Virus record (IMG/VR): IMGVR_UViG_3300017706_001290
Location: 1 to 48,417 of that record
Length of the DNA: 48,417 bases
Reading direction: 5' to 3' (one strand)
Source of the DNA: a virus
Under the pieces are notes generated by a model. The model was not told the origin of the DNA. It made no database searches and was given only the letters and a program-made list of their open reading frames with translations. How positions within the stretch are numbered: position 1 is the stretch's first letter; each line of letters starts with the position of its first letter. A program made the translations under genes and the position numbers. Of the stretch, positions 16,425-21,737 are shown in pieces.

Positions 16425-17018
16425 TTAGGTTATACTTGTTCTAAAATGCGATATAATTGCCCAACCATTAGGCGTCCACATTAAATAGATACTATCTCCT
16501 AAGTTATTAAAAGTTACAGTAGTATACCCTAAACCATTAGCAGGGGTAAGTGTAACAGGATTGCTAAGTGCTTCTGTTGCCACAATTGTAATAAGTTGAC
16601 CTAATTCTCCATCTGGAAGTGTAGGTGAAACATTTGTTACACTTGTTATATAGCTAACTCCGTTATCTATAGACACTTCTGTTCCTACGTTAGAGGTAAT
16701 TTGTGTCATAAGGATTTTATTAGCGTAAATTTTATCCCATTGTTTATTATTGCTACCTAAATTGTAATTATTTGTTGCGGTTGGAATTACATCACTTGAA
16801 ATATTAGAATTTAAAGTTAAAGAGCCGCCAGTGTTACCAATAGTAATAATATCACCATTTGCAATTAGTGTACCACCAATATATAAATCATTGTTTATAT
16901 ATGCACCACCTTTTACGAGTAAGGCTGATTCTGTATCAACAATAGCATTTAAATCAGTAAAATTTAAGGTACTATTAATTACTAGCCGACCATCGTCAGG
17001 TTTTATATATGATGCCAT
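16425..17018 (-). CDS. Small tail or virion structural protein, 197 aa
   Basis: A 197-residue beta-rich protein. Residues about 40-105 contain NNDLYIGGTLIANGDII and LGSNNKQWDKIYANK, a short version of the LGSPSKKWRDLY head module seen in the two S74 fibres, so it is probably a fibre-related structural protein. The C-terminal 70 residues look like a compact beta domain ending in WTPNGWAIISHF, a pattern I associate with small receptor-binding or capping modules. It is the first gene of the three-gene fibre operon (16425-17018, 13204-16413, 11957-13204), with 11 bases to the next gene and a late-like box upstream. Confidence 0.78.
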   Translation of the reverse strand: MASYIKPDDGRLVINSTLNFTDLNAIVDTESALLVKGGAYINNDLYIGGTLIANGDIITIGNTGGSLTLNSNISSDVIPTATNNYNLGSNNKQWDKIYANKILMTQITSNVGTEVSIDNGVSYITSVTNVSPTLPDGELGQLITIVATEALSNPVTLTPANGLGYTTVTFNNLGDSIYLMWTPNGWAIISHFRTSIT

Positions 17019-17114: not shown

Positions 17115-17329
17115 CCTTATTAGAGTGATAGGTTGGACTCTGTGAATACCAACAATCCCTAGTAGAGCCACGCTCAATTTCAGGATACCTTGCATCGGAT
17201 AGTTACTTCCAAAACACGCATCTTCATGTCTCCATGCTCATGCGCTGTCACTACAACTACAAATCAAGTTACAACCTCTACAGACTGCTATTACTTGAAC
17301 TATCTAAGTTACACCGTCGTCTAACTTAT
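17090..17329 (-). ncRNA. Candidate structured noncoding RNA, about 240 nt
   Basis: This intergenic stretch is an independent minus-strand transcription unit: a sigma70-type promoter (17336-17364), about 240 bases without a convincing reading frame, and a strong terminator (17088-17114). Predicted structure includes a clean hairpin at 17217-17244 (CGCAT, internal loop GAG/AAG, CATG stem, GAGA tetraloop), a long-range GATAGTT/AACTATC pairing (17298-17304 with 17198-17204) that would close the 5' half, and a possible AGAGT/ACTCT hairpin near 17122-17141. It does not resemble tRNA, tmRNA or 6S RNA on inspection. It lies between the haloperoxidase gene and the fibre operon, both probably late, while its own promoter is of early type. 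The function is unknown. Confidence 0.65.
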
Positions 17330-17403: not shown

Positions 17404-18972
17404 TTATACTGTGACTGAAACTCCATCAAATCCAACAATAGTAATATTACCACGTGATTCAATTTGTCTACTAATATAATCTTTGAAATATGCAATAGCA
17501 ACTTTTTGTCCTAACATCATTCCCTCATCGCCATCTACACGATAATGCACACCTGCAATATTACGACCAATGGCAATGTTTGCTGCTAGTTTGTTTAATT
17601 CTCCATGAACTGTTAAGTCTCCAGAGTCACTACGAGTATATGCTACACGGGCTGTACCATTTGTAGAATGCATTACACTTGAATAATTACCCATTGATGA
17701 CCAGTTTGTATCTGAATACATCAGTTTTAATATTGTTGCACATGCACCTGCGATCACAGCATGTCCTGCTGGATAAGCTGGGTGTGTTGGTGAGCCTTCT
17801 GCATACAATAATGGTAAGAAAGGTTCGTTATCTCCACCATTTGCTACGTTAAATGCTTTCACTGCATTAATTGTTGATTGTGCATTTGTAGTTAATGATG
17901 AATCATAATACACAGAACTATCTCCTGCAATACCAGTTACTACACGTGCAGCCATTGTTTCTGGTCGTAGTCTTAAATGTTGTCTCCATTTTTGTACCCA
18001 TGACGCTGATAGCGCATTTGCTGAAACTGCCGCTACTGCTGGAGCAACAAATGCTGGTCCGCCTTGTGTTAAGAATGCACCACTATTGGATGGATCTGCA
18101 TCACTAAATGCAGTGTGCCTTGTGCCACCTTGTGCTAACATTGATGTTGCATAATAAAAATGTTGGTAAACAAAATCATTATGTACAATTGTACCAAGTG
18201 AACGTCCATTCCATATATATTGATCTGATCCGTTAGCAGCTTGTGCTACTGGTACTGAACCATCAGCAATTGCTTTAAAATTGCTTTTCGTGATGCCATA
18301 TACACCTGTATGATAATTATATTTTTGTTCTATTTCATGAGAACCTAAATTAAAGTCATGAATTAAAAATTGTGATATATATGGTCCAGTAAGACAACCA
18401 GGCGCAACGCCACGAAATAATTCAGCTCTTGTTAATTGGCTTGTTGTTTCATTTACTGGGCCTTTGTATTCAGAACCAAATGCATTTAAGTTTGTTACTG
18501 CACGATCAGCATCTGTATCTGCGGCTCCAAAGTTAAGATGGTCAAATGAAGTATCTCTCTGTATATTCATTTCCCAAACTTCTACCATTTCGCCTGCAGC
18601 TTCTTCACTATCAAGTGCTGGTGAAGCTTTCATTGTCATACCATATGCTTCTTGTCCCATACTTTCTACAATGAAAGCACCAAGAGGATTGGCTAGTTTA
18701 CGTGTTGCATTGGAGGAAAGGTTAACTTGTTCTAAATCAGATTTAGAACCGCTTTCCATTGCTGTTTTTAATTTTTGTGTTTCTGTTGCATCAGGAAGTA
18801 GTGTGGTCGAATCATGTTCCAATGTTTTACTAAACATGGCTGGAGTATTGTTTGCAACCATGTCTGGATTTTTAACTTGGCCAGTTTCAAATTCTTTACT
18901 TCTTGAAAGTGTGTTAGTTATACGCTTTTGGTTAAAGCTGTTTTTTCGATTATTTTCTTCTATTGAACTCAT
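17404..18972 (-). CDS. Vanadium-dependent haloperoxidase-like protein (PAP2 superfamily), 522 aa
   Basis: Length and motifs match algal and bacterial vanadium haloperoxidases, which use vanadate and H2O2 to oxidise halides. Visible are an N-terminal helical motif EVWEMNIQRDTSFD (about 131-144), FRGVAPGCLTGPYISQFL (about 186-203), KWRQHLRLRPE with K328 and R336, HPAYPAGH with H397, G403 and H404, and GRNIAGVHYR with R470 and H476. Against the eight vanadate-site residues known from the Ascophyllum enzyme (K341, R349, H411, S416, G417, H418, R480, H486), seven are in register and only Ser416 is changed, to Ala402. The ATG at 18972 is chosen for its AGGGAGA ribosome binding site; an upstream ATG at 19002 lacks one. 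No signal peptide is visible. It closes a cassette with an amidotransferase and a diiron protein. Peroxidase activity is inferred; phosphatase activity is the alternative. Confidence 0.88.
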   Translation of the reverse strand: MSSIEENNRKNSFNQKRITNTLSRSKEFETGQVKNPDMVANNTPAMFSKTLEHDSTTLLPDATETQKLKTAMESGSKSDLEQVNLSSNATRKLANPLGAFIVESMGQEAYGMTMKASPALDSEEAAGEMVEVWEMNIQRDTSFDHLNFGAADTDADRAVTNLNAFGSEYKGPVNETTSQLTRAELFRGVAPGCLTGPYISQFLIHDFNLGSHEIEQKYNYHTGVYGITKSNFKAIADGSVPVAQAANGSDQYIWNGRSLGTIVHNDFVYQHFYYATSMLAQGGTRHTAFSDADPSNSGAFLTQGGPAFVAPAVAAVSANALSASWVQKWRQHLRLRPETMAARVVTGIAGDSSVYYDSSLTTNAQSTINAVKAFNVANGGDNEPFLPLLYAEGSPTHPAYPAGHAVIAGACATILKLMYSDTNWSSMGNYSSVMHSTNGTARVAYTRSDSGDLTVHGELNKLAANIAIGRNIAGVHYRVDGDEGMMLGQKVAIAYFKDYISRQIESRGNITIVGFDGVSVTV

Positions 18973-19026
18973 TTTATTCTCCCTTATGAAAAGAAATAGC
19001 ATAGAACTTATTAAGTCCCATGCTAC

Positions 19027-19055: not shown

Positions 19056-19613
19056 TTAAATGTTATTAATAAATTGTTCTAGATCGTTTGGCAGAACGGG
19101 ATTTTCCATTCGCTCTGGATGCCAAACTATACCCCATACTTTATTAATATTATGTTTGAATGCTTCAATGTCACCTTCTTTTGTGATAGCAGTAGGTGAA
19201 AATCCCTCTGCTAATTTTAAAATTTTGTTTTGATGATAGCTGTTTACTACAACAGATTTATTATCCATTGTAACTTCATGTTCCGTTTTATAATGATCCT
19301 CACATTCTATATTAATACCTTCTTCAAGTTGATTAATTAAAAATGCTCCGTGGCAAACTCCTAGTACAGGTTTTTTTTGTTTATAACACTCAGTAAGTAG
19401 TCTTATTTCTGTTATTATCCTAGGACTACTCGCATCGCCACCTGTAAAGATTACCATGTCTAAGTCTTTGATAATATTAGAAAAATCTTGTTCTGGATTG
19501 TTTGCTATATTAAAAAGCGTATGATCGCTTAGTAGGTTGTACCAACCATGTTCTAAACAATCATACGCAAAATCATTGTAATGGAATATGCGTTGTGTTA
19601 ACCCAATATTCAT
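19056..19613 (-). CDS. Class I glutamine amidotransferase-like hydrolase (PuuD / gamma-glutamyl hydrolase type), 185 aa
   Basis: A compact class I glutamine amidotransferase fold. The N terminus MNIGLTQRIF is typical of the peptidase C26/PuuD branch. The oxyanion loop is FTGGD (56-60), the nucleophile Cys87 sits in LGVCHGAF, NSYHQ is at 124-128, and the catalytic dyad is H165 and E167 in WHPER. All three triad residues are present, so the protein should be active, probably hydrolysing a gamma-glutamyl amide or supplying ammonia. The N-terminal TQR...WY pattern also recalls gamma-glutamyl-CDP-amidate hydrolases of the Campylobacter phosphoramidate pathway, a weaker guess. It lies between the diiron gene (15 bases away) and the haloperoxidase gene and is probably co-transcribed with them. 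The substrate is unknown. Confidence 0.85.
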   Translation of the reverse strand: MNIGLTQRIFHYNDFAYDCLEHGWYNLLSDHTLFNIANNPEQDFSNIIKDLDMVIFTGGDASSPRIITEIRLLTECYKQKKPVLGVCHGAFLINQLEEGINIECEDHYKTEHEVTMDNKSVVVNSYHQNKILKLAEGFSPTAITKEGDIEAFKHNINKVWGIVWHPERMENPVLPNDLEQFINNI

Positions 19614-19628
19614 TTACAATATGTTCTC

Positions 19629-20330
19629 TTACCAACCGTAAGCTTCGTTTACTAGCTCGTCTGAACCTTCTGCTTTAACTGTGTTTAAGCATGAAACGTT
19701 GTATAGGTCTTTTCTCATACCGTCAACGATGTCTAATACGTGTGCTTGTACTTCTGGTGTTGTTGCAATTGCTTCTAGTTTCATTGCACCAATAGTTGAG
19801 TGGAAACCCTCATCTTTAGCAATTTTTGCATATGACTTTGCAATGAATTCGTCTTCAATTGATTCTGCCATTTGTGCCCATACTGCTGCCGCACGTCCTT
19901 CAGCAACGATTTGATATACAGCTAGAGCTGCTTCATCATTTGATGCTTCGTACGCTTCTAGTAGATCAGCACCTTTAGCTTGTGGCTTTGCTGCCTCAGC
20001 TGCGATTGCTGCGTCTACGTCTAGAGTTTCGCCTGTGATTTTTTCGATGCACTCTTTAACCATACGGAAGTGAACTGCCTCATCATGCGCTTGCTTTGAT
20101 AGGTTTTGTAGTTCAATTGGGTCTGCGTCTGCTGGCATTGAAGCAACTTGGCGAGAAATCTCTACCATGTTCATTCTTTCGTTTACCATACGACCTGTGA
20201 AGTGCTCTACTAGCTCTTCCATTGAGTTATTTTTTGACTCAAAATATGCTTTCACATTCATTTTTGATGCTGTGAAAAGTGCTTCGTTATCTTTTTGTAG
20301 TTTTGCTACAAATTGTGTTGATGTTGTCAT
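19629..20330 (-). CDS. Ferritin-like carboxylate-bridged diiron protein, 233 aa
   Basis: A mostly helical protein with two matching halves: E57, then E84xxH87 (DEAVHF), and E144, then E174xxH177 (DEGFHS). The spacing of 27 and 30 residues between Glu and the ExxH motif is that of ferritin-like diiron oxidases and oxygenases, so all six metal ligands appear present. It is not recognisably ribonucleotide reductase (no R2 motifs) nor a ferritin by length. An N-oxygenase, hydroxylase or oxidase role is plausible; the substrate is unknown. The start is supported by GGAGAA about 6 bases upstream. A late promoter at 20496-20503 and a structured leader of about 165 bases precede it. It is the first gene of the cassette with the amidotransferase and haloperoxidase genes, immediately after the capsid gene terminator. 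Confidence 0.8.
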   Translation of the reverse strand: MTTSTQFVAKLQKDNEALFTASKMNVKAYFESKNNSMEELVEHFTGRMVNERMNMVEISRQVASMPADADPIELQNLSKQAHDEAVHFRMVKECIEKITGETLDVDAAIAAEAAKPQAKGADLLEAYEASNDEAALAVYQIVAEGRAAAVWAQMAESIEDEFIAKSYAKIAKDEGFHSTIGAMKLEAIATTPEVQAHVLDIVDGMRKDLYNVSCLNTVKAEGSDELVNEAYGW

Positions 20331-20573: not shown

Positions 20574-21737
20574 TTACTGGAATGTTAGGTTAGAATCGTT
20601 AACACCGATCTTCGCTAGGTAGTCTGCTGCATTACCAAGTGATGATGCTTGGTTGTTTAGCTCTACGTAGCCGTAACGTGTCATGAATGACACTGTTGGC
20701 TCGAATGTTGCCGGATCTAGTACTGTGCCTGATGACATTAGTGGGATGTATGGGCAATAGAACGCTGCCGCATCAATTTCACCGTCGCCTTTATAGCCAA
20801 CTAGTACTGGTGTTGAGTCGTTTGCATACTGGTCTACGAACACTCTCATTGTGTTGTTTAAAGTACCTACGAATTTTGTATTTGTTGGTGCTTCAAAAGG
20901 ACCTTCTGTTGTACGTGCAAATGCTGATGTTGTTGCTGACTGTAGTACTGTTAGTACTGTTGGTGATACAACTACATAGTTACCTGCGCCACGGCGTGTT
21001 CTTGCCGCGATTAGGTTTGCTGCTCTGTTGATTAAGATTGCTAGTGCCGCATGCTGGTCACCTACGAATGTTGCTTGGCCTGTTGCCGCTGCTTGGTCGT
21101 ATGTGTCTGTAGCTGTGCCTGCTAGTGATCTTAGTGAAGTTAGAACTTCTTGGTCGATTTCAGCAGTAATTTCTTGTGCAAGTGCTTGCATGATTTCTGC
21201 TTCTACATCTAAGCCGTGCATTGACTGTGCGTCTTGCGCTGCTTCGAATGTCCAACGTGCTGATAGCTTACGTGTTTTTGCTTCAACAGTTTGTTTTAGA
21301 ACTTGGATAGATAGTTTTCTACCAGCTTCTGCTTCTAGTGCTGCTGTTGCGTCTGGACCGCCGTTTGCTGCATTACCTGAATAACCTTTTGCAATTGCAA
21401 ATGGTGATAGTGCTTCATCACCTGCTGTTACACCAGCGGCTGTTTGGCCGTAGCGTACTCTTAGTGTGTGAATTTGGCCTACTGGACCTGTCATTGGCTG
21501 AACGCCGACTAATTCGTTTGCAATAACCGTTGGCATTACGCGACGGATTACTGGTAGAATTACTTTGTTTAGCGATGCAATGTTGCCCGCCATTGTTGAA
21601 CCTGCAACTGCTGATTCTGAAAGATATGTTTTAGTATTTTCTAAAACTGATTCCATTACAACTTTTTTGTTGCCTGTTAGACCATCTGTTAGGGCTTCTT
21701 TGGTTACACCCCAGTTTTCAAATAGGTTCTGTGACAT
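20574..21737 (-). CDS. 23: Major capsid protein, T4 gp23-like, 387 aa
   Basis: This fits a shortened marine gp23: N-terminal region MSQNLFENWGVTKEAL, then IASLNKVILPVIRRVMPTVI and ANELVGVQPMTGPVGQIHTL, which are typical of T4-like capsid proteins (the NELVGVQPMxGPxG stretch), and a C terminus with MTRYGYVELN. It forms the hexameric capsid lattice and is normally trimmed near the N terminus by gp21. The 387 residues are shorter than T4 gp23 (521), which is usual for marine relatives that lack insertions. It follows gp20, gp67-like, gp21 and gp22 in T4 order, 13 bases after gp22, and a strong terminator follows. The heavy use of GCT, GGT and ACT codons compared with its neighbours agrees with high expression. 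Confidence 0.95.
   Translation of the reverse strand: MSQNLFENWGVTKEALTDGLTGNKKVVMESVLENTKTYLSESAVAGSTMAGNIASLNKVILPVIRRVMPTVIANELVGVQPMTGPVGQIHTLRVRYGQTAAGVTAGDEALSPFAIAKGYSGNAANGGPDATAALEAEAGRKLSIQVLKQTVEAKTRKLSARWTFEAAQDAQSMHGLDVEAEIMQALAQEITAEIDQEVLTSLRSLAGTATDTYDQAAATGQATFVGDQHAALAILINRAANLIAARTRRGAGNYVVVSPTVLTVLQSATTSAFARTTEGPFEAPTNTKFVGTLNNTMRVFVDQYANDSTPVLVGYKGDGEIDAAAFYCPYIPLMSSGTVLDPATFEPTVSFMTRYGYVELNNQASSLGNAADYLAKIGVNDSNLTFQ

Follow-up and report, generated by a model that had tools for sequence, protein, structure and literature searches.

Gene content of the locus

Judged by its gene content, the 48,417-nucleotide stretch of viral DNA analysed here (IMG/VR record IMGVR_UViG_3300017706_001290; hereafter referred to as the window) is a T4-like, jumbo-type phage contig, and its phage nature is solid. 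Pfam searches identified Gp23 (E = 6e-101) and Portal_T4 (E = 1e-105), and the window also encodes the gp21 protease, the scaffold gp22, a late sigma factor, and baseplate and tail fibre proteins. Its gp23 is nearest to those of the large-genome phages Sinorhizobium phage Phosso, Vibrio phage 2.275.O and PA5oct (67–71% identity). The region downstream of gp23 contains a gene for a homologue of vanadium bromoperoxidases (the gene and its product are hereafter referred to as VHPO), together with the following features:

20574–21737, minus strand: major capsid protein gp23, upstream of VHPO in the same orientation (Pfam Gp23; 70.8% identity to Phosso)
19629–20330, minus strand: ferritin-like protein with two ExxH motifs (weak DUF455 match; motifs read directly)
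19056–19613, minus strand: class I glutamine amidotransferase, Peptidase_C26-like (Pfam E = 1e-17; phrog_7218)
18979–18985, minus strand: ribosome-binding site AAGGGAG ahead of the ATG at 18972 (read directly)
17404–18972, minus strand: vanadium bromoperoxidase homologue (VHPO), 522 residues (phmmer, alignment and fold model)
17122–17327, minus strand: manA RNA motif (RF01745), in the gap separating VHPO from the tail-fibre-like gene (Rfam, full model match)
16425–17018, minus strand: tail-fibre-like protein of 197 residues, the next gene downstream (weak PHROG tail fibre match)

The longest open reading frame at the VHPO locus (17404–19002, minus strand) encodes 532 residues. We prefer the start at 18972, because AAGGGAG precedes this ATG with a spacing of 6 bases and an equivalent Met begins the homologues of L003 and L004. 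The gene is intact in the window, and the presence of gp20, gp21, gp22 and gp23 on the same T4-like contig bears out the preliminary description of its product as phage-encoded.

The manA RNA motif scores 37.4 bits (E = 2.8e-8), under the Rfam gathering score of 55.2, and is kept between VHPO and the fibre-like gene in L001 (6649–6850) and L031 (2990–3194, minus strand). It is preceded by TTGACA-17-TATATT (17364–17336) and followed by a strong terminator-like hairpin (about 17117–17088), and here it stands ahead of a tail-fibre-like gene instead of a metabolic gene. The window shows no enrichment of the T4-type late promoter TATAAATA (2 matches versus 6.7 expected), which therefore gives no support for late promoters.

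Homology and predicted fold of the phage protein

Algae, fungi and certain bacteria are the known sources of vanadium haloperoxidases, enzymes that use hydrogen peroxide and halides to produce bleach-like oxidants. The resemblance of the 17404–18972 product to these enzymes, as gauged by sequence comparison, is far beyond chance. In a phmmer search of PDB chains, the vanadium bromoperoxidase (VBPO) of Ascophyllum nodosum (1QI9) was the top match (E = 4.6e-48, residues 30–494), followed at 1e-44 to 1e-40 by the VBPOs of Corallina, A. nodosum (the second enzyme, AnII) and Acaryochloris; among solved structures, only vanadium bromoperoxidases gave strong E-values. An AlphaFold2 model, built with 21 phage and bacterial homologues as input, has a pLDDT of 87.9 and a pTM of 0.91. 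Foldseek aligned this model with all VBPOs at E = 1e-28 to 1e-25 and TM 0.81–0.86 (0.82–0.86 for 1QHB, 1QI9 and 5LPC), with chloroperoxidases, iodoperoxidases and acid phosphatases trailing at E > 0.004 and the acid phosphatases at E > 1. Pfam PAP2 reaches 22.1 bits on the C-terminal part, against a cut-off of 27.2, and the Lys–Arg spacing is K-x7-RP, not the KX6RP of PAP2 acid phosphatases.

Thus, phmmer, the AlphaFold2 model and Foldseek agree with the preliminary description of a full-length vanadium-haloperoxidase homologue rather than a small PAP2 phosphatase, and the helical vanadate pocket on which that description had been made to depend is present, within a full-length VBPO fold. The predicted structure shows the complete VBPO fold (TM 0.85 to solved VBPOs) with its vanadate site, and the phage protein is very probably a VHPO-type enzyme.

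Distribution, phylogeny and selection

A tblastn search of 50,697 GenBank phages revealed no VHPO relative, PHROGs and NCBIfam hold no family for it, and our literature search for haloperoxidases of phages, viruses in general or giant viruses turned up no relevant work. By contrast with the GenBank phages, IMG/VR, scanned with a degenerate active-site motif, yielded 21 stretches, 19 of which contain a clear homologue; L063, found beside a PiT gene, was added, and a second DNA motif scan returned zero further contigs. About 20 IMG/VR contigs therefore carry VHPO. The survey of phage homologues that had been proposed earlier thus succeeded in IMG/VR and came back empty from GenBank, and the view that the enzyme has no annotated phage counterpart held for GenBank phages, PHROGs and the literature. 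Among bacteria, homologues occur in 6 of 786 genomes sampled from two phyla, two of the six being the genomes around which the sampling was centred, with a best identity of 38–39%.

In a maximum-likelihood tree of 43 sequences (quick search, SH-aLRT without bootstrap, unrooted), the window protein and ten other phage proteins form one branch (SH-aLRT 98). This 11-sequence phage-only branch spans T4-like and unrelated tailed phages, shares at most 39% identity with cellular enzymes, and no description of it turned up in the literature searched. A second viral group, on contigs of 96–619 kb, and a third group each have an SH-aLRT of 100, and bacteria group with algae at 99. Since the terminase searches (phrog_2, PF03237) missed most fragments, the assignment of clades B and C to phages is derived partly from IMG/VR and neighbouring endolysin or replication genes. 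The second viral clade includes L034, L035, L040 and L043, with a terminase match on the 619-kb contig.

Comparisons of five phage homologues with close relatives gave dN/dS values of 0.10–0.24, indicating strongly purifying selection. Between the window and L001, the synonymous divergence of VHPO is 0.30 and that of neighbouring genes is 0.02–0.11, which suggests exchange of the gene or its parts between related phages.

Active site and Ala402

In a 21-sequence alignment, 53 of 522 positions are invariant, including K328, R336, H397, G403, H404, R470 and H476. The vanadate-site residues named in the preliminary description are in register with those of two algal enzymes, H397 being an additional active-site His aligned with a His of the A. 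nodosum and Acaryochloris enzymes. Compared with the eight-residue site of Curvularia chloroperoxidase and A. nodosum, the phage protein has Ala402 in place of Ser. Ser402 of the Curvularia enzyme is one of the residues that hydrogen-bond vanadate (PMC10278073).

The replacement of Ser by Ala402 had been regarded as a distinctive change, a view that the wider comparison does not sustain. In the bacterial loci, the position is Ala in nearly all, with Gly in L007 and Ser in Pyxidicoccus L014; in the phages, it is Ala throughout clades A and B, with Ser in the three clade C sequences. The Acaryochloris marina enzyme AmVHPO (5LPC) also has Ala here, in the motif HPSYGAGH, and is an active enzyme (PMC11871015, PMC8407142). 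As Ala402 is common to bacteria, phages and active AmVHPO, it is a branch character and no mark of lost or new function, and a Ser at this position does not define the bromoperoxidase branch.

Trp325, three residues ahead of the catalytic Lys, is matched in the A. nodosum and Curvularia (C. inaequalis) enzymes, whereas the Corallina and Acaryochloris bromoperoxidases have Arg. The residue at this position has been tied to chloride-oxidizing ability (PMC11871015), and the phage enzyme may therefore not be restricted to bromide.

Gene neighbourhoods and accessory status

Most VHPO genes of the phage branch are housed in virion or lysis modules. VHPO lies downstream of gp23 in the window and in G002, G006 and L063; in G011 it comes after terminase, portal, capsid and fibre-like genes, and in G019 it is directly followed by a head–tail adaptor and tail genes. 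In G016 it adjoins a transglycosylase and small membrane proteins, and in G013 an endolysin and a GroEL-like chaperonin are nearby. The exceptions are G003 and G010, in which VHPO is surrounded by genes of host takeover (for IMPDH/GMP reductase, Hsp20 and a ClpX-like protein) and structural genes do not adjoin it.

The nearest bacterial homologues (L007–L011, L013 and L015) start with Tat-like RR leaders, whereas the phage proteins have no leader. By eye, no T4-style capsid-targeting peptide or cleavage motif was recognized at the VHPO N terminus. In L047 (7055–12281), the VHPO of G007 lies amid short proteins with starts like MKHIKLYEEFINE, which may resemble the peptide that directs internal head proteins of T4 to the capsid. 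A GroEL-like chaperonin is encoded on the VHPO-bearing phage contig L039 (4333–5904, minus strand; Cpn60_TCP1, E = 6e-63), and a permuted alphaproteobacterial-type tmRNA, a possible host clue, lies on the VHPO-bearing phage contig L004 (12293–12799).

Optional genes, VHPO among them, occupy a hot spot downstream of gp23. The gene order of L064 matches (major capsid protein, PiT, ferritin-like protein, amidotransferase, fibre), but the VHPO position is taken by a different RNA-like segment and a small open reading frame, and in L065 and L066 a different gene follows the amidotransferase. A PiT-type phosphate transporter (6L85, E = 5e-4) lies directly downstream of gp23 in L001 (2508–3467) and L031 (4921–5874, minus strand). 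Its relatives occupy 441 IMG/VR loci and none in the GenBank phage set; it is common without VHPO and missing from the window. Because PiT is so widespread and is absent here, import of vanadate by a PiT-like transporter is a lead only.

The ferritin-like gene was considered as a specific peroxide partner of VHPO and rejected, since it commonly pairs with the amidotransferase without VHPO: of 80 IMG/VR loci inspected, more than 70 have the pair, and VHPO is missing from nearly all of these. The ferritin-like gene has 221 IMG/VR relatives, is common in phages lacking VHPO, and has zero matches in the GenBank phage set.

Proposed role and alternative explanations

We favour, as the probable reading of these sequences, a catalytically competent, leaderless bromoperoxidase that is made late in infection and works for the most part extracellularly, following lysis or together with the virion; its placement outside the cell or at lysis is the tentative part. 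Full-length homology, the VBPO fold, the invariant site, dN/dS, the monophyletic clade, the virion and lysis neighbours, the missing leader and the syntenic contigs that lack VHPO speak for this reading. Against it speak the position of the G003 and G010 genes among host-takeover genes, the failure to recognize a capsid-targeting or cleavage motif, and the lack of enrichment of the T4-type late promoter. Catalysis is well supported by inference, and the biological role is hypothetical, as are the oxidant removal, halogenation of surface molecules and disruption of signalling suggested in the preliminary description.

The enzyme would bind vanadate at His476; H2O2 would convert this to peroxovanadate, which would oxidize bromide or iodide to hypohalous acid, and possibly chloride too, because Trp325 places it closer to the enzymes of A. 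nodosum and C. inaequalis than to those with Arg. Judging from gene order, VHPO would be synthesized late, alongside virion and lysis proteins, and it would fold in the host cytoplasm because it lacks a Tat or Sec leader; timing and place of action are both read from these two features. It would meet a halide-rich working medium only upon lysis or as a particle-associated protein, and there destroy peroxide and produce hypohalite, as auxiliary cargo non-essential to the virion. Phosphatase activity may also occur, because the vanadate site binds phosphate as well. A bolder version, in which several unrelated tailed-phage lineages carry a virion-borne haloperoxidase that makes hypohalite during lysis, or on or close to the surface of the cell, as a chemical weapon or protectant, seems unlikely.

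The strongest rival, itself doubtful, is an intracellular peroxide sink, in which VHPO lowers H2O2 in the infected cytoplasm and shields phage replication while thiols consume the hypohalite. Bromoperoxidases remove H2O2, the phage VHPO has no export leader, and two relatives lie amid stress and chaperone genes, all of which fit such a sink; however, hypohalite within the cell is damaging in itself, cytoplasmic bromide is probably low, and most clade members reside in virion or lysis modules. Less likely is a role in phosphate metabolism, with the vanadate-site fold serving as a PAP2-type phosphatase coupled to phosphate uptake, and we consider it improbable. Here, the below-cut-off Pfam assignment of the C-terminal part to PAP2, the PiT-type transporter directly downstream of gp23 in sibling phages (6L85, E = 5e-4) and the phosphate that occupies the vanadate site in AmVHPO crystals (PMC11871015) are set against the absence of PiT from the window, its frequency in phages without VHPO, the K-x7-RP spacing, a whole fold that is VBPO-like, and acid phosphatase matches at E > 1.

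Reuse of the scaffold as a non-catalytic virion component is very unlikely: although structural genes adjoin VHPO and characterized VBPOs form large oligomers (PMC11871015), no catalytic residue varies among the 11 phage proteins, and VHPO is optional cargo. The contig is metagenomic and linear, and bacterial DNA could in principle have been misassembled into it, a prospect made almost negligible by the shared arrangement in the independent contigs G002, G006 and L063, by homologues of 94% and 72% identity, and by the finding that no bacterial protein among the 786 sampled genomes exceeds 39% identity.

The place of the gene in an apparently undescribed phage-only branch suggests that phages may deploy oxidative halogen chemistry. 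A leaderless branch under purifying selection, mostly in virion or lysis context, would bring peroxide-driven halogen chemistry to bacterial viruses, and could couple lysis by viruses to the formation of halogen compounds that are reactive or volatile.

Comparison with known enzymes

The A. nodosum VBPOs I (1QI9) and II (5AA6) share with the phage protein the fold, a full-length alignment, the K/R/H/G/H/R/H site and the Trp before Lys; they differ in being algal, in having Ser where the phage has Ala402, and in overall sequence (about 31% identity). AmVHPO has the VBPO fold and the vanadate site, including Ala before Gly-His, but carries Arg425 for Trp325, is longer and dodecameric, and is cellular. 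The Tat-leader homologues of Verrucomicrobiota, Acidobacteriota and Pseudomonadota (L007–L011 and L015) are 32–36% identical over the full length and have Ala at the 402 position (Gly in L007), whereas their twin-arginine-like leader and separate clade set them apart. VirX1 of cyanophage Syn10 (PMC8407142) is likewise a phage-encoded halogenating enzyme, but is flavin-dependent and belongs to a different family, whereas the VHPO type depends on vanadate and H2O2. Proteins of the giant viruses Sylvanvirus (A0A3G5AI90), Hokovirus (A0A1V0SGK0) and Yasminevirus (A0A5K0U6L7) have the VBPO fold in predicted structures (TM 0.76–0.86, BFVD), but belong to a group of viruses with eukaryotic hosts and show 22–28% identity. 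These three proteins are annotated only as uncharacterized or PAP2.
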